Assembly: GCF_004785935.1 (NCBI RefSeq) | Contig: NZ_SRRP01000001.1 | Coordinates: 1,240,001-1,304,000 of the forward strand | Length of the DNA stretch: 64,000 nucleotides | DNA from: Streptococcus rubneri | Lineage (GTDB): Bacteria > Bacillota > Bacilli > Lactobacillales > Streptococcaceae | Reading direction: 5' to 3' | Shown: piece by piece, positions 45,995 to 57,625 of the stretch | How the letters are laid out: every line of letters begins with the position of its first letter | Position numbering within the stretch: position 1 is the first letter of the stretch | Notes under the pieces: generated by a model | Databases searched by the model: none | Seen by the model: only the letters and a program-made list of their open reading frames with translations | What the model was told of the DNA's origin: nothing | Translations under genes and position numbers: made by a program

Positions 45995-46123
45995 CATCAT
46001 CTTCTGCATACTTGCTTTACAGGATGTCAATTTTTCTGGATTCATCAATTTTATTTTGTTATAGGTAAGAAAGAAGAACAAACAAGAAAAACACGGCATA
46101 AAAACCTATTCAGTTCATCGTCC

Positions 46124-47173
46124 TCAATCCTTGTCTGCTTCATTTTCTTTTACGAGATCGTTTTGTGAATCTTTTTCAGAGAGTTTTTGATCGATATACT
46201 TGTCAATGTTTTCGTAAAATTCCTTGGTCGCTTCACTATCTAATGTTGGCGAGTTCTGAACTTGATTCACTTTCAATTGAACAGATTGAATACCGTAAGA
46301 GGCTTGTTTTTGGTGGAGTGTTTCTAATTCTTCTTCTGAAATCGGATCTCCAACAACCGTCAAGACCAATTCATTGTTACTTGACTTGTAGACTTGATTA
46401 ATAACCGTATAATTGGCGAACTCTTTTCCTACAAACTGTTTGATCCCTTCTTTGCGCGCTTGTTCTATTGTCAGAGTAACTGCCGAATAGCTAGCTGGAA
46501 GAATCAACAATACAATCAAAGATATCAAGCCAATTCTCATTTTAATGCTCAGCTCTTTAAATGAAGTTAAAGGAGATTTTCTCATCAAAATTCTTGTTCC
46601 AACAATGTTGGCTAGCATGATAAAGACACAGTTGATCAAGAAAAGATAGAGAGCCCCCAATAAAAATCGTACATTCCCATTAGCTAAACCATAGCCAGCA
46701 GTACAGATAGGCGGCATCAGAGCTGTAGCAATGGCTACTCCTGGCACGATATTGTTTGCTTCTTTTTTCCTTGAACCGATCACACCAGCAATCCCACCAG
46801 CAATAGCAATGAGGACATCCCAAATGGTTGGAGAGGTTCGTGCAATCAACTCGCTACTTGCATAAGACAAGGGAGAAATCCAGAAATACAGAGTCGAGAC
46901 AAGCAAACTGACCAACACTTGAGTCAATAAAACCTCTAGAGATTGCTTGATTAAACGCGTATCAAAAATAGCTAAACCGAATCCCAGTCCAACAATCGGT
47001 GTCATGAGAGGTGAAATCAACATGGCTCCTATAATGACAGCTGTTGAATTCATATTTAGTCCGATAGAGGCAATAAAAATTGCACACATCAAAATCGCTG
47101 TATCTCTCAATCGAACATGAAGGTCATCGTATAATTTCTCACGGTATTCCCGTGTTGAATAATTGGCAGTCAT
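46124..47173 (-). CDS. DUF389-family membrane protein, full-length copy
   Basis: The 349-aa protein has about six membrane helices with the DUF389 core: MNSTAVIIGAMLISPLMTPI, AGGIAGVIGSRKKEANNIVPGVAIATALMPP, and a C-terminal cytosolic domain with LTVVGDPISEEELE. The family function is unknown; a transport or stress role is often proposed. Its ATG overlaps the K+ channel stop (ATGA), so it is translationally coupled. The segment 46041-46914 is duplicated without indels at 50723-51596. The C-terminus is acidic and Lys-rich. Confidence 0.88.
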   Translation of the reverse strand: MTANYSTREYREKLYDDLHVRLRDTAILMCAIFIASIGLNMNSTAVIIGAMLISPLMTPIVGLGFGLAIFDTRLIKQSLEVLLTQVLVSLLVSTLYFWISPLSYASSELIARTSPTIWDVLIAIAGGIAGVIGSRKKEANNIVPGVAIATALMPPICTAGYGLANGNVRFLLGALYLFLINCVFIMLANIVGTRILMRKSPLTSFKELSIKMRIGLISLIVLLILPASYSAVTLTIEQARKEGIKQFVGKEFANYTVINQVYKSSNNELVLTVVGDPISEEELETLHQKQASYGIQSVQLKVNQVQNSPTLDSEATKEFYENIDKYIDQKLSEKDSQNDLVKENEADKD

Positions 47174-47493
47174 TTGTCCTCTCCTCTTTCCTTATTTAAA
47201 TTGGTATAATAATTAAAAATAACAGCTGATAAACAGCCAAAAAATATGAGCCCATAAATCGTCAAGAAGACACTGGTAATCCTTCCAATCAAGGTCACAG
47301 CTAGGAGATCCCCGTAGCCGACAGTCGTCGAAGTCACAAAAGCATACCAAAGACCGTCTCCGTAATTTGTGATAGCAGGTTCAACTAGGAAAAGCACGCC
47401 TCCTGACCCAAAAACAAAGGTCACAAAACTCAGAGCAAACCGAGTAAAACCCGTAACCTGCATAATATGCCATAACATTTTTAAACGTTTCAT
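47170..47493 (-). CDS. Two-TM potassium channel protein
   Basis: The 107-aa protein has two membrane helices flanking a pore loop with the selectivity filter TSTTVGYGDL, so it is a minimal KcsA-like K+ channel subunit. It has no RCK or TrkA-N gating domain. Both ends overlap neighbours by 4 nt (ATGA), which ties it to the ORF before it and the DUF389 gene after it in one operon. Confidence 0.88.
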   Translation of the reverse strand: MKRLKMLWHIMQVTGFTRFALSFVTFVFGSGGVLFLVEPAITNYGDGLWYAFVTSTTVGYGDLLAVTLIGRITSVFLTIYGLIFFGCLSAVIFNYYTNLNKERGEDK

Positions 47494-47852
47494 TTGTTCT
47501 CCTTATTCATACTAGCTCCTGACCGAGCCGTTTTTTTCCAATAATCAAAGTGAAGATAGGACATGATCTCCATCAGAGAAAGATAGACAAACTGATAGAT
47601 CTGATTTAAGCTGATTATCAACTGATATTGTTTGAAAAATGACTGGAAGAAAGACCAGATATGACTGTCTTGAATCAGTCCCTTCTTAATATCAGACAGG
47701 ATATTAGCTAAAGCTCCCAAGGACTGAAACGGTAAATCCTTGACATTTATATAGATCCGGTCCACCACATCATTCAGACTGGTATCTTGGATGGCATGAA
47801 ATTCTCCAAAGAGAACTCCTGCCGCTCCAAGAGTAGAAACAAATTCCACCAA
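47490..47852 (-). CDS. Unrecognised protein upstream of the K+ channel
   Basis: This frame encodes up to 120 aa of soluble, helical sequence (DLPFQSLGALANILSDIKKG, WSFFQSFFKQYQLI) that I cannot assign. Its stop overlaps the K+ channel ATG, which supports real translation. It has no ribosome binding site of its own and overlaps the preceding TMEM175-like frame by 79 nt. It may therefore be reached by frameshift or coupling, or be the 3' part of a gene broken by an indel. Confidence 0.5.
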   Translation of the reverse strand: MVEFVSTLGAAGVLFGEFHAIQDTSLNDVVDRIYINVKDLPFQSLGALANILSDIKKGLIQDSHIWSFFQSFFKQYQLIISLNQIYQFVYLSLMEIMSYLHFDYWKKTARSGASMNKENK

Positions 47853-48076
47853 ATAATTTCTGAGGAAATTTTCTCAACCTTTTCCCATAATGTGTTTAGT
47901 GCCATCCATAACGATCCCAACCAGAAAAAGGAAAGAAAACAAGCAAAGAAATTTTGCCGTAAATCCCAAAAAGCTTCAAGACTTGGTGTTGTTGGTTTTT
48001 CTAACTCTAAAACCAAGATGGTCATAATAATTGCTAGAACAGCATCTGTCAATACAATTAATCTGTCTTTCTTCAT
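47774..48076 (-). pseudogene. TMEM175-family K+ channel, N-terminal half only
   Basis: From the ATG at 48076 (GGGGATG upstream), about the first 80 residues follow the TMEM175/DUF1211 pattern: LTDAVLAIIMTILVLELEKP (the FSD-type filter helix), then LSFFWLGSLWMALN and WWNLFLL. After that the frame degenerates (LERQEFSLENFMPSK) and stops at about 100 aa. A complete protein needs about 200 aa, so this is truncated. A matching C-terminal piece lies at 48650-48937, beyond an rpsI scar. Confidence 0.65.
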
Positions 48077-48364
48077 CGGATTGCATCCCCTTTCTTTTTT
48101 GTAACATTCTATCTTATCGCATAATATTGGATATTCTTTCATAATCCGACTACAAACAAAAATAAACCAAAAAGTATGTCCCTATTATACTATATTTAAC
48201 TCTAGAAGTATTCATCCATCTAATTAATAAATATATCATATTTCACAATAAGTGAATACTATCAAAGATTCATCCCCTTTCACTTCATCATGTAGTGTTG
48301 CTTAGATTTATCAAAAACAACCAAATTTGTATTAATTTCAAGTATCACCTAGTTACAAAAATTT
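48077..48364. other. Intergenic region left of the first rpsI scar
   Basis: It contains a TATAAT -10 (minus strand, near 48185) that probably drives the K+ channel operon, and AT-rich sequence without genes. Confidence 0.4.
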
Positions 48365-48480
48365 GGGGTGAACAGAAAAAGCATCCCGTATTTTTGATAC
48401 GAAATGCTTTCAATAAGTTTAAATAAGTTTTAACGTTTACTAAATTGTGATGCTTTACGAGCTTTTTTCAAGCCTGGTTT
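48365..48480 (-). repeat. rpsI 3'-end scar 1 with arm repeat (att-like site)
   Basis: 48430-48480 on the minus strand encodes [16 protein letters not shown] plus stop, the C-terminus of ribosomal protein S9. A terminator hairpin follows (AGCATTTCGTAT/ATACGGGATGCT), then GGGGTGAAC (48365-48373, plus strand). The same order, S9 end, terminator, GGGGTGAA, occurs at the intact rpsI. Confidence 0.85.
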
Positions 48481-48649
48481 GGAAAGTATGGGTTTCAGTT
48501 GGACTAAAAACAGCGTATTATCAAGGCTTTTCAGAACGATATCTACTGATTAATTTCATAAAATATGAATCAATAGATTATAAATAGGGGAATAGTTTAG
48601 GTCTGTAAGCATTAAAATAATACACCTAACTTTGATCACCATTTTTTAG

Positions 48650-48937
48650 TTATTCACTCTTTTTTCAGATAGTGTTTTTAAAGTTATGATATAAAATGCC
48701 GCAATTAAAACACTATACATCATAATCGGAGGATAGACAATTAAGGATAGAATCAATCCCACTCCTTTAATTATTAGGTCAGGTATCAATAACTTTCTAT
48801 ATTGTGCGGTAGCTTCAAGTAATTCTTTCTGATCTATATTGGGTTTATCAATTACTTTATGTAAAAACCAGTTTGCTACCGTTGAAACAACAACGATTAT
48901 AATCTCCCTATAATCATGGAAAAGTAGTAAAAATAGT
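48650..48937 (-). pseudogene. TMEM175-like C-terminal fragment without start codon
   Basis: The frame is open directly after the cadX stop codon but lacks an ATG, GTG or TTG near its beginning. It encodes about 95 residues including WFLHKVIDKPN, ATAQYRKLLIPDLIIKGVG and LSLIVYPPIMMYSVLIAAFYII. This resembles the second repeat of TMEM175-family channels. I could not confirm the family without a search. It fits the missing half of the truncated gene at 47774-48076, although the two pieces are in reversed order. Confidence 0.45.
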
Positions 48938-48939
48938 TG

Positions 48940-49278
48940 TTATCCTAGTTGATTAAAAAAATCTCTGATTTCCTCATCTTTTATAAAATAATATATAATT
49001 TTCCCCTCTCTTCTAGTGTCCAAGATGTTTTGATTGGCTAGTTTACGAAGATGGTGGGAGGCAGATGCCATACTGAGATTTAATAAACAGGCTATATCGC
49101 AGACACAGAGTTCTTCGACGGCAAGGAGATAAAAGATGATATTTATCTGTTTATTATCGGTAAATTTTGATAAAATGCGAAGTGATTTTTGGACTTTTTC
49201 CTTTTCAAGGTAGTTCGTTGCGGTTGTAACATTTTGTTGATTTATAACATCCACTTGACAGATACTATCTTTTTTCAT
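48940..49278 (-). CDS. cadX: Cadmium-responsive ArsR/SmtB regulator
   Basis: The 112-aa winged-helix repressor has the metal-site motif ELCVCDIA on helix alpha-3 and an N-terminal Cys (SICQVDVI), as in CadC/CadX. The recognition helix is SMASASHHLRKL. The ATG at 49278 has GGAG 8 nt upstream; an in-frame start 30 nt earlier is weaker. It follows cadD after 11 bp. Binding to the palindrome upstream of cadD would be relieved by Cd2+, Zn2+ or Pb2+. Confidence 0.92.
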   Translation of the reverse strand: MKKDSICQVDVINQQNVTTATNYLEKEKVQKSLRILSKFTDNKQINIIFYLLAVEELCVCDIACLLNLSMASASHHLRKLANQNILDTRREGKIIYYFIKDEEIRDFFNQLG

Positions 49279-49289
49279 AATTTTTTCTC

Positions 49290-49904
49290 CTAGCCTAACA
49301 CAGCCCATAGCATGTCAAAGCTGTTGTTTTCAATCAGGATATACATCCCCAATCCTAAATAGACAACGGCAATAAACCATCTGCTATATTTTTCCAAAGT
49401 TTCTCCAACAGAAGGGACTTGTGCTAATTTTTGGGCAGAAAAAACCAAGAGATAAATCATGACTAGAAAAGTAAGTAAAGTCACTATCAAATTCGCTAAA
49501 TTTAAGGTGATAAAATATGGGACAAAGACACCAATATTGTCAGCGCCACAACTTGCAAAAGTAATCATAGCGACTAGAAAAATCAGGTTTCTATTGTCTT
49601 TTCGCAAACCATCTTTTGCAATAGCTTCTCCATCAGAATCTCCTAAAAGCAAAACTTTGAGGCCTAGGAAAATTGGAATCAAACCGAGTAAACCTAAAAT
49701 CTCTTTACTAGGAATATAATTTAAGACAAATGCAAAAAGCAAACTTAGGAATATTAGACTAACAGAGCCTAGAAATTGTCCTAAATAGATGTTAATGATG
49801 TCCTTTCTGCTTTTTCTTTTGGCAAAAAATAACATTAGGATAATAAGTAAGTCTACGGCTGTCCCAGAATACAGGATTATTGAAGTAACAACATTTTGAA
49901 TCAT
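49290..49904 (-). CDS. cadD: Cadmium resistance transporter CadD
   Basis: CadD is a LysE-superfamily membrane protein that gives Cd2+ resistance, probably by efflux. The 204-aa chain has five to six helices, with ILYSGTAVDLLIILMLFFA at the N-terminus and FASCGADNIGVFVPYF in the middle, both typical of CadD. The ATG at 49904 has GAGG 6 nt upstream. It heads the cadD-cadX operon on one of the rpsI-linked accessory segments, so acquisition by transfer is likely. Confidence 0.93.
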   Translation of the reverse strand: MIQNVVTSIILYSGTAVDLLIILMLFFAKRKSRKDIINIYLGQFLGSVSLIFLSLLFAFVLNYIPSKEILGLLGLIPIFLGLKVLLLGDSDGEAIAKDGLRKDNRNLIFLVAMITFASCGADNIGVFVPYFITLNLANLIVTLLTFLVMIYLLVFSAQKLAQVPSVGETLEKYSRWFIAVVYLGLGMYILIENNSFDMLWAVLG

Positions 49905-49914
49905 AAAATACCTC

Positions 49915-49965
49915 ATTCAAATATATTTTTGAATGTATTCTAACATTAAGCTTTGTAGATGTCAA
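49915..49965 (-). promoter_or_regulatory. cadD-cadX promoter with CadX operator
   Basis: TTGACA (49960-49965) and TAGAAT (49937-49942) on the minus strand are 17 bp apart. The inverted repeat ATTCAAA-n6-TTTGAAT (49915-49934) lies directly downstream of the -10, over the start site, as in CadC/CadX operators. Confidence 0.88.
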
Positions 49966-50268
49966 CTTAAAATCCACCAATTAATAATTGCATGTCAATA
50001 TTTGTATTGTGAAACTAGTTTCAGAAATATATAGTCTTAAAGTATGTCCACTGCCAATGATTTTTTCAATATTTAAGAGGAGATTTATAATGGTTCATTT
50101 CTATAAATTTATAAACGAGTTATATATTTTGTTTAACCAATTATTAACTATTTTTATCAATAATCACATCATTAATTTGTACTTTTTAATTTTCCCAATT
50201 TGTAAAATTAAACCAGAAAAAATGCATCTCGTATTAGACGAAATGCTTTCAATAAGTATAAATAAGTT

Positions 50269-50317
50269 TTAACGTTTACTAAATTGTGACGCTTTACGGG
50301 CTTTTTTCAAGCCTGGT
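50269..50317 (-). repeat. rpsI 3'-end scar 2 (att-like site)
   Basis: The minus strand encodes [14 protein letters not shown] plus stop and shares the next about 35 bases with scar 1, including the start of an AGCATTTCGT terminator hairpin (about 50222-50250). Confidence 0.85.
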
Positions 50318-50580
50318 TGGAAACATTTCTATTTGAATAAGTTTCAAGATGGGCTTAAAATCAATGTTTACCCACGTTTTCAGAAAGAACAATTTCATCT
50401 AATTTGAATATATTTCATTTAAATAGTGTGAACTTTATCCTAAAAATACACGAATTGAGCTGATAAATACTAAAAAGTTCACACCATTAGTTAAATTATT
50501 TTTTGTTACATACATTTTTTTAGATGATAGACCTCCTAATTTATTTCTTATAGCATTTGAGCAAACCTCCGTTATCAGAA

Positions 50581-50634
50581 AACAACCAGAAAGAAAGACC
50601 GCAAAATTAATATTTTCTTTCTGGTTGTTTTTTT
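50581..50634 (+). terminator. Orphan intrinsic terminator
   Basis: ACAACCAGAAAGAAA pairs with TTTCTTTCTGGTTGT and is followed by T7. No gene is present upstream on this strand, so the gene it served has probably been lost. Confidence 0.75.
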
Positions 50635-50805
50635 ATAAATTGAATTTTCAGTAAAATACTTTACTCATTTATAATACCCCTAACTTCTATGTACTTTCTT
50701 TCATCTAAAGAAAAATCTCGTTTTCATCAATTTTATTTCGTTATAGGTAAGAAAGAAGAACAAACAAGAAAAACACGGCATAAAAACCTATTCAGTTCAT
50801 CGTCC

Positions 50806-51648
50806 TCAATCCTTATCTGCTTCATTTTCTTTTACGAGATCGTTTTGTGAATCTTTTTCAGAGAGTTTTTGATCGATATACTTGTCAATGTTTTCGTAAA
50901 ATTCCTTGGTCGTCTCACTATCTAATTTTGTCGAATTATGGACTTGATTGACTTTCAATTGAACAGATTGAATACCGTAAGAGGCTTGTTTTTGGCGAAT
51001 GGTTTCTAATTCTTCTTCTGAAATTGGATCTCCAACAACCGTCAAGACCAATTCATTATTCCTTGACCTGTAGACTTGATTAATGACTGTATGATTGGCG
51101 AACTCTTTTCCTACAAACTGTTTGATCCCTTCTTTTCGCGCTTGATCTATCGTCAGAGTGACTGCTGAATAACTGGCTGGAAGAACCAATAATACAATCA
51201 AGGATATCAAGCCAATTTTCATTTTAATGTTTAGCTCTTTAAATGAACTTAAAGGAGATTTTCTCATCAAAATTCTTGTTCCAACAATGTTGGTTAGCAT
51301 GATAAAGACACAGTTAATCAAGAAAAGATAGAGAGCCCCAAATAAAAATCGTACATTTCCATTAGCTAAACCATAGCCTGCAGTACAGATAGGTAGCATC
51401 AAAGCTGTTGCAATGGCTACTCCTGGCACGATATTGTTTGCTTCTTTTTTTCTTGAACCAATGACACCTGCTATCCCACCAGCAATAGCAATGAGAACAT
51501 CCCAAATGGTTGGAGAGGTTCGTGCAATCAACTCGCTACTTGCATAAGATAAGGGAGAAATCCAAAAATACAGAGTCGATACAAGCAAGCTGACCATCTC
51601 TTTGAGCTTATTGAAGAAACAATTTCTTGTGTAAATCCTATTTTTCAA
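50806..51648 (-). pseudogene. Truncated duplicate of the DUF389 gene, fused to transposase antisense sequence
   Basis: Residues from about 18 on repeat the full-length DUF389 protein (46124-47173) with few substitutions, starting at its VSLLVSTLYFW segment. The first about 100 residues of the family are missing. The 17 N-terminal codons (MKNRIYTRNCFFNKLKE) are antisense to an ISL3 transposase remnant. Copies 50723-51596 and 46041-46914 have identical length (874 bp). The loss of the N-terminal helices makes function unlikely. Confidence 0.85.
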
Positions 51649-51863
51649 ACTGTTTTTAAGACCTTTTTGAAAAATAAGGGCAAGATCATAAATGCACTAG
51701 AACCGACCTACTCAAACGCAAAACTAGAAGCTACTAATAACCTCATAAAGATCATCAAACGAAATGCTTTTGGCTTCCGGAACTTTAAAACTTCAAAACT
51801 AGAATCCTCATTGCATTGAACATCAAAAAGGAGAGAACCAATTTGGTCCTCTCCAGGGTATAA
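51598..51863 (+). pseudogene. ISL3-family (IS1167-like) transposase, C-terminal remnant with frameshift
   Basis: The frame reads EETISCVNPIFQ, then SNAKLEATNNLIKIIKRNAF and GFRNF, the conserved end of ISL3 transposases. After GFRNF a one-base deletion breaks the frame; a +1 shift restores NFKTRILIALNIKKERTNL and a stop at 51861. The sequence to about 51910 (TTGACAAAGAGCC) resembles the IS end. The upstream part of the IS is missing, and the DUF389 copy joins it directly at 51596/51597. Confidence 0.85.
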
Positions 51864-51954
51864 TTTTCCATCAACCCACTACAGTTGACAAAGAGCCGTT
51901 ATTCTCAAATGAGACAACTCCTTTTAGTTTTTATAACCTCAGCTTCTCGGTCTC

Positions 51955-54018
51955 TTACCTACTTTTAATAGAAAGACTACGAAGGACGATTCTTAAAGTA
52001 GTCAGATTGTGCAATATCGAAAGATTAGATGGGCTTAACCAATTTAACAACCCAAATCCAATTAAACTTCCATTTATTACAACTGTTTCTTGAATATTTC
52101 TTTGAATTAATTTCTGCAACGATTCAGATAAAGAATTCAATTCCTCGAAGAAATCTAAACGATTATCTAATAATAAAATATCACTCATCTGCTTAGAAAT
52201 ATCAGCACTTTCATTCATCACAACCCCAATATCTGCAAGCGTCAAGGCAGCAGAGTCGTTTAACCCGTCTCCAACCATCAAAATAGTTCGGCCAGCTTTC
52301 TGTAATTCCTGAACCAACTGAAACTTACCATCTGGTTTTAAATCAGTATAGACGTTGTCAAATGGCAGATCTTTAACCAACTCTTCTGTTCTAGCCAACG
52401 TATCACCAGTTGCCAGAATCAGTTTTTTCCCTTGGCGTTTTAGCTTTTTCAATGCAGCTTTCGCCTCGCTTCTCAAGGGAGTGTGGATACAAAACATCCC
52501 AATTAATTCTTTCTTATAAGCCAAAAACAATAAATTGTAATGAGTCTTATATTGCTCAATCAAGGCCAGCTGCTCAGAACTAATTCTTACCTGTTCGTCT
52601 TGCATTAGTACATAATTTCCAATGACAACCGATTGACCATCAATTTGCGATTTAATCCCTTTGCTTGCAACATACTGAAGCTTGCCATGCATTTCTTCGT
52701 GTTCAATGCCTTCAATTTCAGCTTGTTTAACAATTGCATTGGCAATAGGATGATAGATATGTTCCTCCAAACATGCACTTATTCTTAAAATATCTTTCTC
52801 AGTATAATCTCCGAAAGGAAGAACCTTTTCAACCAAAGGATAACTCGTCGTGATGGTACCCGTTTTATCAAACAAGAAAGTATCCACTTCCAGATATTTT
52901 TCTAATACATCACCATCTTTAATAACCATTTCTCGATTTAGACCTTCCTTTATGGCCGTAAGGTAGGCTACAGGTGTGGATATTTTTAGAGCACATGAAA
53001 AATCCACCAATAAAAAGGAAATAGCTTTTGAAAACGAACCTGTTAACAGATAAGTCAAACCAGCACCTAAGAAGTTATATTTTACAACCTTGTCTGCCAT
53101 CCTAATAAAATGACGTTGTTTTGTCTTCTTACTCTCTTCAGATTTTTTCATCAGATTGATGAGTTGCAAAATACGACTGTTTATCTGATTATCAGTCACA
53201 CGAATTCTTAACTCTCCTGTTTCCAAAACAGTATTCGCACATACAGAATCTCCCTCTTTCTTTTCAACAGGGAAGCTCTCTCCAGTCAAGGAACTCTCAT
53301 TGACCATGCCTAATCCTGAAACCACTTGGCCGTCAAACAAGATTTCATTCCCTTGGGAGACAACTAATACATCACCTACTTGAACATCAGAACTCTTGAT
53401 GCTGATGACCATGTCTCCCCGCACTAAGAAAACATCACTTTCTTTAGCAAGAAGGCTTTGTTCCAAATCTGTTGCTGTTTTTTTTAAAGACCACTGATCC
53501 AGATGATTACCCAAATCAAGCATAAACATGATGTTGCTAGCTGTCTTGGATTGGTTCATAAACAAGGACAACAAAATGGCCGAACAGTCCAAGACCTCCA
53601 TGGTTAGTTCCTTGCGCGCTAAAGTTTGATAGGCTTCTTTGACATAACCCAAAGCCTGATAACAAGTCCAAATATAACGAATAGGGTAGGGTACAAAACT
53701 TCGAAACAGCAAACGCTTAATCGCTGCACCCGATACAATTGAATAAGCACTCTCTTCTCTACGAATGGGAAGAGTCATCAAGTCCGAAACTTTCCCCTTG
53801 TCAATTTTTTTTAAAAAGGCCTCTGCATTTTCTAATACAGAGAAGCCTTCTTTCATACGTAGAGTAAAATGCTGCTGATCCATATAAAACTGAATAGAGT
53901 CGATCCCTTTTTCATCTTTAGCCAAGGAACGAAGATAATCTTGAATATCCAAGGTCAGTGAAAACGAGGACGATAATCGGATATGTTGATATCCTCTGTG
54001 TAGCACTTTAAAAGACAT
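51955..54018 (-). CDS. Heavy-metal-type P-type ATPase with atypical metal-site motif
   Basis: The 687-aa protein has the P1B core: actuator TGES (about 245), phosphorylation DKTGT (about 384), HP motif in EHIYHPIANA (about 423) and GDGLND (about 583). The ion-site helix reads FSCALKIS (about 340-347) where most relatives have CPC or SPC, so the conserved Pro is absent. There is no N-terminal CxxC metal-binding domain, only a soluble region of about 90 residues. The ATG at 54018 has AGGTGA 5 nt upstream, and the DUF6110 stop is 1 nt away. The metal is unknown. It is accessory cargo. Confidence 0.88.
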   Translation of the reverse strand: MSFKVLHRGYQHIRLSSSFSLTLDIQDYLRSLAKDEKGIDSIQFYMDQQHFTLRMKEGFSVLENAEAFLKKIDKGKVSDLMTLPIRREESAYSIVSGAAIKRLLFRSFVPYPIRYIWTCYQALGYVKEAYQTLARKELTMEVLDCSAILLSLFMNQSKTASNIMFMLDLGNHLDQWSLKKTATDLEQSLLAKESDVFLVRGDMVISIKSSDVQVGDVLVVSQGNEILFDGQVVSGLGMVNESSLTGESFPVEKKEGDSVCANTVLETGELRIRVTDNQINSRILQLINLMKKSEESKKTKQRHFIRMADKVVKYNFLGAGLTYLLTGSFSKAISFLLVDFSCALKISTPVAYLTAIKEGLNREMVIKDGDVLEKYLEVDTFLFDKTGTITTSYPLVEKVLPFGDYTEKDILRISACLEEHIYHPIANAIVKQAEIEGIEHEEMHGKLQYVASKGIKSQIDGQSVVIGNYVLMQDEQVRISSEQLALIEQYKTHYNLLFLAYKKELIGMFCIHTPLRSEAKAALKKLKRQGKKLILATGDTLARTEELVKDLPFDNVYTDLKPDGKFQLVQELQKAGRTILMVGDGLNDSAALTLADIGVVMNESADISKQMSDILLLDNRLDFFEELNSLSESLQKLIQRNIQETVVINGSLIGFGLLNWLSPSNLSILHNLTTLRIVLRSLSIKSR

Positions 54019-54019
54019 A

Positions 54020-54298
54020 TTATTCACCTGTCAGGCTATCTAATTGTTCTTCTTTCTTTTCCTGTTCGTATAAATATTTAGCGTCTTGTAAAACATCATC
54101 ACCGTGTTGTTTTACAACAGAAACAGATGCATCCAGTCCATCTTTCAATTTGTAAGCTTTAGCCAAGGCCTTAGAATAGCCTTTCTTAGCTTCTTTACTT
54201 GCTAAGACTTTCAAGCCAAGTGTCCCAAATGCTACCCCTCCTAAGAAGAGAGATGATTTTTTCGCAACTTTTGCGACGTTTAATACTTCTTTTAACAT
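54020..54298 (-). CDS. DUF6110-family small protein paired with the P-type ATPase
   Basis: The 92-aa protein has an N-terminal hydrophobic helix (SSLFLGGVAFGTLGLKVLAS, about residues 15-34) and a charged helical tail (KYLYEQEKKEEQ). Small proteins of this type precede heavy-metal P-type ATPases in Firmicutes (DUF6110, from memory). AAGGAGGAAATAAAC before ATG is a strong ribosome binding site. It is translationally coupled with the ATPase and may be a subunit or chaperone. Confidence 0.75.
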   Translation of the reverse strand: MLKEVLNVAKVAKKSSLFLGGVAFGTLGLKVLASKEAKKGYSKALAKAYKLKDGLDASVSVVKQHGDDVLQDAKYLYEQEKKEEQLDSLTGE

Positions 54299-54411
54299 GT
54301 TTATTTCCTCCTTGTAACTATTGTAGCGAAAAATGACAGCAAAAGCAATTGCTGATATCTGATATATAGATAAAATTCTCTATACTGATATTTAATTATA
54401 TTATGATGAAA

Positions 54412-54441
54412 ACAATATACTTTATTTTTTGATACTGTCAA
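54412..54441 (-). promoter_or_regulatory. Promoter of the DUF6110/P-type ATPase operon
   Basis: TTGACA (54436-54441) and TATTGT (54412-54417) on the minus strand are 18 bp apart. Three ATATCAG repeats lie in the leader (about 54350-54395) and could bind a metal regulator. Confidence 0.55.
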
Positions 54442-54478
54442 TAATTATGTGTAAACACTTAAGTAGAGTTACGGAGTG

Positions 54479-55078
54479 TTAATTAAATAAGCTTTCAAGT
54501 GTATCAGAACATTGACCAAACCCTTTATGGATTCGTTGACTTTGCTTGAAATTATAATCTTCAAACAACGTAACTAAGTAACGTTCCAGAGCCTCCTCAT
54601 TAGGAAAAAGAACCTTCTTTTTCGTTTGATGTTTGATTTCTTTGTTAAGAGACTCAATGAGGTTTGTCGAATACATGCTGTGCCAAATCTGGTAGGGAAA
54701 CTGATAAAAAGTTAAAAGATTATCCGTCTTCTCCAGACTTTCCATGACTTTCCTATACTTTGGTTTCCATTCGGCGAGAAAGTCCTCTAAAGCTTGTCCT
54801 GCCATTTCTAAATTTTCAGCACGATAAATCATTATAAATTGCCCCAGAATAACCGCTCTATCTGCTCGTTTCACTTTACTAGCTAGATTTCGACTAATAT
54901 GAATTAAGCAACATTGTTGTTTAGCTAATGGGTGAGCCTGACTGATAATCTGCTCAAGCCCCTTAAAGCCATCTGTAACTACAAGAGAAATCTGTTGGAT
55001 TCCTTGGTTTTGAAGCTTGTCTAACAGGGTGGACCAAGAAGCATTGTTTTCTTGAGGCAACTGTGCATAGCATATCTC
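54479..55078 (-). pseudogene. IS256-family (mutator) transposase, C-terminal fragment
   Basis: About 193 residues match the second half of IS256 transposases: catalytic Asp in LVVTDGFKGL, CCLIHISRNLASKV, and the Glu-containing YSTNLIESLNKEIKHQTKKK near the C-terminus. The N-terminal half with the first catalytic Asp is absent; the homology stops near 55078. It lies beside the promoter of the metal ATPase operon, which suggests the IS helped bring in or rearrange this segment. Confidence 0.85.
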
Positions 55079-55131
55079 TATGCGACTAAAGTCGCTAGAG
55101 CTATCCTAATTGCGCACCGCCAGTTCTCATA

Positions 55132-55240
55132 GAAAAAAACACCTTGCAAGATGCAAAGTGTTTTCGTTTGTATTCTGCTGTCCAGCAACGAATTAACGTT
55201 TAGAGAACTGGCTAGCTTTACGAGCCTTTTTCAAGCCTGT
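55132..55240 (-). repeat. rpsI 3'-end scar 3 (att-like site) with terminator
   Basis: The minus strand encodes [13 protein letters not shown] plus stop at 55193-55231, followed by a terminator ACACTTTGCA-TCT-TGCAAGGTGT with T7 (55132-55163). The codons differ from scars 1 and 2 (GCTAGCCAGTTCTCT), so this copy has another origin. Confidence 0.85.
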
Positions 55241-55596
55241 TTTCTAGTATTTTTATATCTATTGGCAGATTATCCGACTTATCCCCATCAACATCTGACT
55301 CTAACTCAACCTCTGAAGAAATCCTAATATTGCGTACTTTGATATATTCGATATTATTGTTACCTACTAGATCCCCTTTTTAATAAATCTGGGATAGCCG
55401 ATAATTTAGAAATGATGGATGAATCCTTTAAAATCAAGATATTTCCATATTCATCTGTATTTTCATCAAATAGTTTTTTGTCTGCATAGTAATTGGATAG
55501 AAGAACTAAGACCTGAGTAGCTTCACCTTCATAATTGCCATTTTTGCTTTCAAAAGGTAATAATTGCTTGTTCATAGCTTGGCGAATCAGTTGCAC
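55241..55596 (-). pseudogene. Diacylglycerol/lipid kinase C-terminal remnant with frameshift
   Basis: From 55596 the frame reads NYEGEATQVLVLLSNYYADKK and SAIPDLLKR, then stops. A one-base shift in an A run continues as KGDLVGNNNIEYIKVRNIR and VELESDVDGDKSDNLPIDI, the C-terminal signature of YegS/DgkB-type lipid kinases. The N-terminal catalytic domain is missing. The reading frame runs into rpsI scar 3, showing the recombination joint. Confidence 0.7.
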
Positions 55597-55628
55597 CAGC
55601 CAAATTAATTGTCTTGACCGACGAATAA

Positions 55629-55982
55629 AGCGACTTCTTTCAAGGATTCGACCATAAGGAAACAGTTGGCAGATTCTATAAAAGTGTCGATGTGATTCGG
55701 CACGCTCATCAGACTCGCTACACAGAGCTGGTACATAATATCTGCTATAATTTTCTGGAAGATTTGGTCAAGCGGTCTTTTAGCCGTGTGACAGGCATAC
55801 AGGAAAAACACTATTTATTTACTTTTTGCACGGGAGGCTTTAAGATGTTGCTGGACGCCTTTCTTGATAATCACTCAGAGTCGCCAGAGTGTCTGGGCTG
55901 GGATATGGCAAAGATATACCGCTGCCTGAAACTGTTCTTTGACGCTGATAAACGCGACATATCAATTAAAATGTCGCACTAA
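55629..55982 (+). pseudogene. TetR-family regulator C-terminal remnant
   Basis: The open frame of 118 codons lacks a proper start and N-terminal helix-turn-helix. It encodes YKSVDVIRHAHQTRYTELVH and FTFCTGGFKMLLDAFLDN, which resembles the C-terminal domain of TetR proteins of the DhaS type. It is divergent from the lipid-kinase remnant. Confidence 0.5.
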
Positions 55983-55987
55983 AATGA

Positions 55988-56016
55988 TTGAAAAGTGATT
56001 GAAACTGTATTATAAT
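55988..56016 (+). promoter_or_regulatory. Promoter of the DUF1269-like gene
   Basis: TTGAAA and TATAAT are 17 bp apart, 32 bp before the ATG. Confidence 0.8.
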
Positions 56017-56048
56017 GAACGTATATATTTAGAAAAGAGGTACTAACT

Positions 56049-56657
56049 ATGGAAAACCTAGTAGTTTCAGTCTTTAACACTGAAAGCGAAGCTTATCAGT
56101 CCTTTGCGGATTTGAAGGCTTTCCGCCAAACTCAGACGACCAAGGTTGCTCAAATCGCCTTGGTCAAAAATGAAAACGGTCACATCGTTGAAAAAGAACG
56201 CTATGACTTTGAAGATTCAACGACGGATGCAACCCTAGAAGGTGGCTTGCTCGGTGCAGTTATCGGGCTTTTGGGTGGTCCTATCGGCGTCTTGTTTGGT
56301 TATGGTATTGGCAGCCTCTATGGTTTGGCTGCTGGTGATACCGTTGATACGGCAGAAGCTGGCTTGATTGACGTTGTGTCTCAAAAATTGATCGACGGCG
56401 AAACAGCCGTTGTCGCCTTGGTGCAAGAAAACAACGAAGCAGTCATCGATGCTTACTTCACCAAGTACGACACCCAAATCGTGCGTTGGGATGTAGCAAC
56501 CGTCGTAGCCGAAATCGAAGCAGCTCTGCAAGTCCAAGAAGACCTCTACAACCAGGCACGTGCACAAATGAAGGCTGAACGTAAAGCCGAACGCAAGGCT
56601 AAACTTGAAGAATTCAAGGCAAATGTCAAAGCAAAATTTGACAAATTGAAAGCCTAA
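56049..56657 (+). CDS. DUF1269-like glycine-zipper stress protein
   Basis: The 202-aa protein has an N-terminal alpha/beta part (MENLVVSVFNTESEAYQSF), a Gly-rich hydrophobic hairpin (residues about 65-98, GGLLGAVIGLLGGPIGV and GYGIGSLYGLAAG), another alpha/beta part with TAVVALVQEN, and a basic coiled-coil tail (MKAERKAERKAKLEEF). This fits DUF1269-type membrane-associated stress proteins. AAAAGAGG precedes the ATG. It is intact, with its own promoter and terminator. Confidence 0.75.
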   Translation: MENLVVSVFNTESEAYQSFADLKAFRQTQTTKVAQIALVKNENGHIVEKERYDFEDSTTDATLEGGLLGAVIGLLGGPIGVLFGYGIGSLYGLAAGDTVDTAEAGLIDVVSQKLIDGETAVVALVQENNEAVIDAYFTKYDTQIVRWDVATVVAEIEAALQVQEDLYNQARAQMKAERKAERKAKLEEFKANVKAKFDKLKA

Positions 56658-56664
56658 CGTCTAA

Positions 56665-56705
56665 GCGTCTCATAAATTTAAATGTGACTGAGACGCCATT
56701 TAAAA
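56665..56705 (+). terminator. Terminator of the DUF1269-like gene
   Basis: GCGTCTCA (56665-56672) pairs with TGAGACGC (56689-56696), followed by CATTTAAAATTT. Confidence 0.6.
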
Positions 56706-56901
56706 TTTATGTGCGTCGGATTCTCACAGTTAAATAATTGCGTTGACAAAGCCGTTACAGCCGTTCTTCCATTCTTTGAAAAGAATGTTTAATAGACAAG
56801 AAATCTGGACTAGTATTGGTCTGGATTTTTTTGTGAATATAGAGGTCATAGCTTTTTGACTATGCTTCGTTATAATTAGAAAAATTTTAAGTTTTATCAA
56901 G
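56706..56901. other. Spacer before the integrase remnant
   Basis: No gene is seen. It probably contains decayed parts of the missing N-terminal integrase region, but I could not read homology. Confidence 0.3.
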
Positions 56902-57123
56902 ATGAAATCAGTCAGACGAAGACATCCCGAATTAGCACCAGCATCACCACACAAACTAAGACATACTGGTGCTACTCTTGCTAAACAAGCAGGTGTTTCT
57001 CTTGAAGCCTTCTCAGAAGCTCTTACTCATAGTGATAAAGAGATTACAAAAACTTACGTTAATATCAAAGATAAAGTCAATCAGACTGTAGGTGATATTG
57101 CTTTTCGTAGTTTAAAAAATTGA
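56902..57123 (+). pseudogene. Tyrosine recombinase (integrase) C-terminal remnant
   Basis: The 73 residues carry the catalytic C-terminal box: HKLRHTGATLAK (HxxR), LTHSDKEIT (second His) and the nucleophile Tyr in KTYVN. The N-terminal and core-binding domains and the first catalytic Arg are missing, and no ribosome binding site is present. It ends 110 bp from the rpsI stop and is convergent with it, the normal position for an integrase at its attachment site. Confidence 0.88.
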
Positions 57124-57124
57124 T

Positions 57125-57155
57125 GGGGTGAATATGGGGTGAATTTTGGGGTGAA
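57125..57155. repeat. Three GGGGTGAA direct repeats (integrase arm sites)
   Basis: GGGGTGAA occurs at 57125, 57136 and 57148, spaced 11 and 12 bp, directly after the integrase stop. The motif recurs beside rpsI scar 1 (48365). Repeats of this kind next to an integrase gene are typical arm-binding sites. Confidence 0.75.
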
Positions 57156-57172
57156 CTTTGATTTTTTGAAAC

Positions 57173-57206
57173 AAAAAAGACATCCAAGAAATAATTCTTG
57201 AATGTC
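57173..57206 (-). terminator. Terminator of rplM-rpsI
   Basis: GACATTCAAGAA/TTCTTGGATGTC stem followed by T6 on the minus strand, about 30 bp after the rpsI stop. Confidence 0.8.
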
Positions 57207-57232
57207 TGTAAACGTTGATATAATCGTATTGA

Positions 57233-57625
57233 TTAACGTTTTGAGAATTGTGATGCTTTACGAGCTTTCTTAAGACCTGGTTTCTTACGTTCAACTTTAC
57301 GTGAGTCACGTGTAAGAAGTCCTGCGCGTTTCAATGAATCGCGGAAGTCTGGGTCTACTTGAAGAAGGGCACGAGCGATACCGTGACGGATAGCTCCTGC
57401 TTGACCTGCGTATCCACCACCTACAACGTTAACGAAAACGTCGTATGAACCTGCAGTTGAAGTAACTGCGAATGGTTGGTTGATTACAAGACGAAGGTCA
57501 GCGTGTGGGATGTACTCTTCAACATCTTTTTTGTTAACAGTGATTTTACCAGTTCCTGGAACAAGGCGAACGCGTGCAACAGCGTTTTTACGACGTCCAG
57601 TACCTGCATATTGTGCTTGTGACAT
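57233..57625 (-). CDS. rpsI: 30S ribosomal protein S9
   Basis: S9 is a 130-aa small-subunit protein whose C-terminal tail reaches the P-site tRNA. The sequence has the family motif [19 protein letters not shown] and the strictly conserved C-terminus [12 protein letters not shown]. It follows rplM in the usual two-gene operon. Its 3' end (the last 13-16 codons) is copied three times in the accessory region, so it appears to be the attachment site for integrative elements. The current 3' end may itself derive from an element. Confidence 0.98.

Follow-up and report, generated by a model that had tools for sequence, protein, structure and literature searches.

A probable array of integrase-less, attachment-site-bounded units at the 3′ end of rpsI in Streptococcus rubneri

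The 3′ end of rpsI, the gene for ribosomal protein S9, is a published site of integrative and conjugative elements (ICEs), integrative and mobilizable elements (IMEs) and prophages, with tandem accretion (PMC4701971, PMC5357655, PMC7168690, PMC7487436). Cis-mobilizable elements (CIMEs), which are bounded by att sites and have no integrase or transfer genes, are described in Streptococcus salivarius; they measure 1.2–13 kb and occupy several sites, among them rpsI, where they stand in tandem (PMC7563491; review PMC5704250). According to the same account, cadmium genes of that species are mostly found in CIMEs, CIMEs are always the elements most distant from the target gene and occur only beside an ICE, a decayed ICE or an IME, and single CIMEs are not detectable (PMC7563491). 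In Macrococcus caseolyticus, the account of McRImecD-1 with McCI_IMD0819 gives the rpsI 3′ end as the att site and places the exchange within its first 8 bases; an island of 2.8 kb that lies between rpsI repeats circularises beside an integrase-bearing island, and the left repeat goes with the circle (PMC5341023). Here we analyse the rpsI 3′ end of Streptococcus rubneri in a stretch of 64,000 nucleotides (contig NZ_SRRP01000001.1, positions 1,240,001 to 1,304,000; hereafter the window) from a genome of 2.16 Mb (G000).

We consider it likely that this region is an array of integrase-less units bounded by attachment sites (CIME-like cassettes), inserted successively at the 3′ end of rpsI. When the 64-kb window was scanned with the S9 tail plus stop codon as a degenerate pattern, the minus strand matched at 48430, 50269, 55193 and 57233 with 0 mismatches each; 100 shuffles gave no match, and a chance origin of the four repeats was therefore rejected. 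The original prediction had placed four S9 C-termini at these positions, and its segments of about 1.8, 4.9 and 2.0 kb agree with the spacings of 1,839, 4,924 and 2,040 bp. It had also proposed a terminator behind each S9 end, and a hairpin with a T-run does lie 3′ of all four (a consensus scan flags two of the four, folding supports every one, with z-scores of −5.0, −2.8, −3.7 and −7.1). The cores and the units that they delimit are:

57233..57625, minus: rpsI, ribosomal protein S9, the target gene; its in-situ core is the 39 bp at 57233-57271
immediately upstream of the 57233-57271 core: AAACCAGG, the 5′ edge of the in-situ rpsI core
55193..57232, minus: unit A, 2,040 bp, from the rpsI stop to the end of scar 1
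55193..55231, minus: scar 1, S9 core at the border of A and B
50269..55192, minus: unit B, 4,924 bp, made up of a P-type ATPase part (B1) and, fused to it, a D-like remnant (B2)
50269..50307, minus: scar 2, S9 core at the border of B and C
48430..50268, minus: unit C, the cadmium unit, 1,839 bp
48430..48468, minus: scar 3, S9 core at the border of C and D
about 46057..48429, minus: unit D, beyond scar 3; its far end and the next core are lost in G000

The window's unit D aligns at 99.0% identity to bases 1-2372 of the complete, 2,669-bp unit D of G024, and in relatives unit D terminates in another S9 core.

With 2 mismatches allowed, the S9-tail pattern was found in 282 of the 284 genomes of the genus that were scanned, in up to 9 copies (G104). 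Sixty-one regions of 5–20 kb beside S9 ends were surveyed in 60 genomes (G000 and 59 others); they were picked by rpsI similarity and multiple S9 copies and are not a random sample, and two of them (G002 distal, G017) lack an anchor at rpsI. In total, 78 complete S9-bounded units were counted in the 61 regions. The profile of the window's integrase type finds a full-length integrase in 21 of these units, a fragment in 15 and no match in 42; it covers one family, so that unrelated recombinases would escape it. The unit directly at rpsI, in 42 arrays, has no integrase match in 12, a fragment in 11 and a full-length integrase in 19. Full-length relatives of the integrase stump found in unit A sit at rpsI in other genomes; the earlier proposal that the scars are attachment sites with the rpsI 3′ end as target is supported, and the contrary sign named with it, an integrase family belonging to another site, was not seen.

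The same units recur among these regions: D 8 times (2,669–2,679 bp), A 7 times (2,040–2,042 bp), F 7 times, B1 fused to C (B1-C) 5 times (G024, G048, G132, G182 and G032), E and a copper-cadmium unit 4 times each, and twice each B (4,924 bp, in G000 and G140) and C alone (1,839 bp, also in G138, at 99.0%). Unit E is a single gene, a GshA-GshB fusion (NF002688, 1,144 bits); unit F carries a malolactic enzyme, a permease and a LysR regulator, and the copper-cadmium unit carries CopY, a copper ATPase and cadDX. No record in the phage and plasmid collections covered 80% of the query; the best plasmid match, from S. salivarius, reached 88.6% over 73% of the query and is annotated as integrase. Two side observations belong to this survey. 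The array of G135 has a cargo gene (L072:15512-16225) with an ADP-ribosyltransferase-type domain (PF03496), and in G002 about 39.9 kb (C1:1390341-1430215), possibly a large inserted element, separate the equivalent of the scar-1 core from the next core.

The order of the units is not fixed. It was counted in 147 regions (the 61 surveyed, 79 named loci and 7 more), 46 of which hold at least two reference units; 38 distinct regions were left after dropping 8 repeats of the same genomes. Matches to at least 60% of a unit were accepted (G008 and L215 pass only at 30%), pairs with B2 were excluded because B2 is homologous to D, and some of the arrays with unit K (see below) may lie away from rpsI. 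The counts were C-D 8 and D-C 4, B1-D 8 and D-B1 5, D-F 4 and F-D 1, E-D 3 and D-E 1, D-K 2 and K-D 1, and B1-E 1 and E-B1 1.

Units are also shared between species at identities that the rpsI flanks do not reach: 100 versus 73.6% (G000-G048) and 100 versus 90.7% (G000-G140) for A, 99.0 versus 77.0% (G000-G138) for C, 99.7 versus 78.5% (G024-G138) for D, 99.1 versus 76.0% (G024-G048) for B1-C and 99.2 versus 90.8% (G002-G028) for E. The contrast is small in the many pairs for which only about 1 kb of flank, mostly rplM and rpsI, aligned. The S. sanguinis locus L128 differs from the window for the last time just ahead of GAACGTAAGAAACCAGG; from there to the end of the alignment the two are identical, and unit A matches at 100% over its whole length.

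Unit D also occurs in another family. Among 395 genomes of the order that were searched, two (G410 and G606, genus g12 of GTDB family f4) have D fused to rpsI. They are two of the seven g12 genomes in that search; four others match the rpsI part only, at 89–98%, and G294 at 83%. G410 and G606 encode an identical S9, unlike that of streptococci; in both, the native rpsI precedes D and a native-like terminator lies beyond it. The congener G328 has its own tail and terminator directly behind rpsI, and a by-eye comparison places a similar terminator and a shortened core beyond D in G410. As a separate observation, a further DUF389 gene, about 90–93% like that of unit D, occurs away from S9 cores in many streptococci (L141-L192), and this relative is also present in contigs titled Gemella, Lactococcus and Veillonella.

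The contents of the window's units are:

57126..57155, minus: three copies of TTCACCC, resembling arm sites, at the left end of unit A
56902..57123, plus: C-terminal stump of a tyrosine integrase, 73 amino acids, facing rpsI (PF00589, E = 2.3e-7)
56049..56657, plus: DUF1269 protein gene, unit A (PF06897, E = 1.4e-6)
54479..55060, minus: IS256-family transposase fragment, unit B (NF033543, E = 6.7e-47, profile 164-335 of 338)
54020..54298, minus: DUF6110 protein gene, unit B (PF19605, E = 8e-19)
51955..54027, minus: heavy-metal P-type ATPase gene, unit B (TIGR01525, 520 bits, cut-off 346)
50806..51648, minus: truncated DUF389 gene, unit B (PF04087, E = 4.7e-30)
49290..49916, minus: cadD-like cadmium transporter gene, unit C (PF03596, E = 1.9e-89; TIGR00779, 212 bits)
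48940..49308, minus: ArsR/SmtB-type regulator gene in the cadX position, unit C (NF033788, 71 bits)
48366..48372, minus: single TTCACCC at the left end of unit D, after the scar at 48430
47490..48142, minus: broken reading frame in unit D, two overlapping open reading frames (ORFs), the downstream one without a Pfam match
47170..47493, minus: ion channel gene, unit D (PF07885, E = 4.1e-12)
46124..47173, minus: full-length DUF389-family membrane protein gene, unit D (TIGR00271 and TIGR00341, both under cut-off; the truncated copy matches PF04087)

The truncated DUF389 gene of unit B is a second copy of the unit D gene (95% over 300 nt). The original prediction had recognized the integrase C-terminus near rpsI, with three repeats following it and a further copy next to its scar 1; of the TTCACCC copies, three adjoin the stump and one lies behind the scar at 48430. 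Its inventory of the segments was right as to the DUF1269 gene, the P-type ATPase and cadDX, but it overlooked the whole of unit D and, in the ATPase segment, the truncated DUF389 copy. Pfam searches of the main ORFs gave no recombinase or relaxase in B, C, D, E, F, the copper unit and several single units, except the IS256 fragment of B; in unit A the integrase stump was the only recombinase trace.

The S9 peptide is kept by 58 of 58 in-situ cores, in 14 synonymous forms, and by 70 of the 82 displaced cores; since the S9 pattern favours near-intact cores, decay of the displaced ones is undercounted. In the 8 D units the front core is one and the same sequence in all eight, and the rear core takes 7 forms; where D starts in the named loci, 21 of 25 have the same 39-bp core as the D units and 4 differ. 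The numbers of front and rear forms are 1 and 2 for E and 1 and 1 for A. It is clear for D that the front core travels with the unit; E fits this, and for the other units the case is weak.

Right ends (the last 190 bp, core removed) fall into groups that cut across unit families. The first group comprises 29 units of 18 families, 16 of them with a full integrase and 12 with none, and the second 26 units of 9 families; control segments taken 400–800 bp further inward grouped at most 8 units of one family, and the second control group had 8 units of 2 families. Among left ends the grouping follows unit type: one group of 33 units is made up almost entirely of units with an integrase or a fragment, and integrase-less units form separate groups. 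Unit A keeps an integrase stump, and what B, C and D have in common with intact elements is the right end alone. A shared right end with differing left ends is how autonomous and non-autonomous partners with one recognition end would be expected to look, and to judge from this grouping the integrase may bind the right end of about 190 bp. Past AAACCAGGTC, two kinds of sequence come after the right ends. TTCACCC is present in 19 of 78 left ends and 1 of 78 right ends (1.79 per kb at left ends versus 0.05 inside); it was rejected as a general mark of the units, being found in only those 19 left ends.

A fifth S9 end with one residue altered lies elsewhere in G000, near C3:74676 on the minus strand. 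It opens unit K, an ABC-transporter unit of 3,519–3,521 bp (L035:5191-8727, G000 contig C3), which is present in G000 and five other genomes at 99.3–99.8% identity, with differing neighbours and outside rpsI arrays. For an empty secondary site of K, the joined flanks of G173 gave no whole match among the matches listed, and 185 of 279 genomes match one half or part of this query; the two halves represent different attachment contexts, so no empty site is shown. Other S9-like sites were noticed in passing. A further right end, at L234:3953 (G000, C1 near 1384951), has a kinase-like ORF ahead of it and leads into AAACCAGGTCATACG, a core of a second kind. In G230 and G276 (L236 and L237, about 3.6 kb in), an S9-like tail lies upstream of a peptidyl-prolyl-isomerase-like gene, and G129 (L235) has an S9 core and arm-like sites at the position of that tail.

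Unit borders, the travelling core of D, shared right ends, changed order, identity across species and D in the rpsI of another family are established, and site-specific insertion at the rpsI core is the best supported mechanism. A unit would consist of one S9-end core, cargo and the right end of about 190 bp. An intact element in the same cell would supply a tyrosine integrase of the rpsI type, which would join the unit to the rpsI core, acting in trans, or in cis if the intact element is the neighbour, and the strands would be exchanged close to AAACCAGG at the core's 5′ edge. The core that arrives with the unit would become the new, synonymous tail of rpsI and the old tail would be displaced behind the unit, which would explain why every scar spells the S9 tail. 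The position of the exchange is suggested by the junctions of L128 and of G410 and G606, and by the two kinds of sequence that come after AAACCAGGTC right ends. We infer both the movement by an integrase, in trans or in cis, and the route of the DNA between cells.

Several observations weigh against successive site-specific insertion: (i) the process is known here from sequence alone, and neither excision nor a circle was seen; (ii) a search with a single integrase gave matches at E 1e-10 in 15 of 21 array genomes, the only close full-length relative is that of G148 (72%), and G000 has no close full-length integrase, only the stump, so that the window's array is probably immobile at present; (iii) unit A is 95.3% alike between G000 and G002, where the flank is 97.4% alike (649 bases), unit F is in some pairs (e.g. 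G046) not more alike than the flank, and vertical descent is hard to exclude for several units shared by genomes with close chromosomes; (iv) front and rear core forms number 4 and 6 for F, 2 and 3 for B1-C and 3 and 4 for the copper unit; (v) the G606 assembly is fragmented (510 contigs, 5% contamination), and an assembly error behind D in the f4 rpsI is possible, yet the G410 and G606 assemblies agree; and (vi) the rpsI of G048 is 98.2% like the window's and its flank 73.6%, which suggests that this array came together with rpsI by homologous recombination.

Homologous recombination, then, probably contributes too. That it accounts for the whole, natural transformation trading and reshuffling arrays through rpsI, the cores and the right ends, with the integrase needless after the first insertions, is doubtful, although competence is established in streptococci, the right ends offer about 190 bp of homology and the rpsI of G048 seems imported. 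At L128 and in G410 and G606 rpsI is native as far as the 5′ edge of the core, where the change occurs; an rpsI that is 75% alike makes poor homology, and unit K keeps the same borders away from rpsI among different neighbours.

Decay in place, the account of the original prediction, is improbable; it would have the elements insert at rpsI separately within this lineage, each then shedding its integrase and transfer genes on the spot. Units A, with its stump, and D, with its lost far end, do show decay, B has an IS256 fragment and G000 has no intact integrase of the window's family. However, other species have these shortened units too, with the same ends and in other orders, A being 100% identical in G000, G140 and G048. 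Since integrase-less units with the same ends are found in this way, in several pairs at identities far above those of the flanks, most of them would have lost their integrase, or never had one, before arrival. Relatives with the same repeats and other cargo, which had been named in advance as counting against accretion and loss, were indeed seen; they fit an exchange of units. Local duplication or gene conversion of the rpsI 3′ end without mobile elements, to which the common strand of the four repeats and their closeness to rpsI might point, has a negligible chance of being right and was rejected, because the cores match those of other genomes and not the local rpsI, integrase-bearing elements lie between the same repeats elsewhere, and whole units recur with their cargo in other species.

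As to class, A, B and C each lie between S9 cores, as does D in relatives, its far core being absent in the window; searches of the main ORFs of A-D against Pfam and NCBIfam show the integrase stump and no relaxase. By these features we class the window's units as CIMEs. An IME would have its own full-length integrase and a relaxase; the window has the stump only, and the relative G087 has an integrase and a PF01719 protein. An integron does not fit either, since the stump scores 21.6 against TIGR02249 (cut-off 265) and the genome has no close full-length integrase. Pfam scans of the main ORFs gave no phage structural or packaging genes, no dedicated phage-family search having been made.

A wider reading, put forward tentatively as possible rather than probable, is that an open pool of mostly single-function cassettes, working much as a chromosomal integron does, is common to streptococci and one or more neighbouring families. 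The integrases of visiting elements would insert and reshuffle these cassettes at the rpsI tail by way of a standard right end, each insertion rewriting the last codons and leaving the protein unchanged. CIMEs are usually seen as leftovers awaiting a neighbour. Should such a pool of integrase-less units be in circulation, species would be able to trade genes of metal resistance, glutathione synthesis or malolactic metabolism in pieces of about 2–5 kb, which searches keyed to integrases and relaxases would miss, and the final codons of an essential gene would be set by its latest visitor. Movement of integrase-less units in trans also becomes directly testable.

Integron gene cassettes resemble the rpsI units in being small, non-autonomous, mostly single-function and inserted at the head of an array. 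They differ in that the site here is the tail of an essential gene, that no integron integrase was found for it, and that several rpsI units hold operons with their own terminator. The streptococcal IMEs and ICEs described at rpsI have the same target, an integrase adjoining rpsI and tandem accretion, but those reported carry an integrase and transfer genes, which the window's units are without (PMC5357655, PMC4701971, PMC7168690, PMC5090054). The Macrococcus caseolyticus islands share the site at the rpsI 3′ end, the core travelling with the unit and exchange at the core edge, as is suggested here; they belong to another genus and form one composite island, for which that account, as far as it was available, describes neither a pool of units nor a changed order (PMC5341023). 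Closest are the CIMEs of S. salivarius, likewise att-bounded, integrase-less, in tandem at rpsI and with cadmium cargo (PMC7563491). In contrast to what is described for them, integrase-less units stand alone here, 12 of 42 arrays having such a unit directly at rpsI, and the same units are shuffled between species. Titles and abstract openings of the open literature searched describe no reshuffled CIME, cassette or integrase-less array at rpsI. What is new in the present locus and its relatives is thus the existence of CIME-only arrays, with integrase-less units fused directly to rpsI, in reshuffled order and spread across species and one family border.

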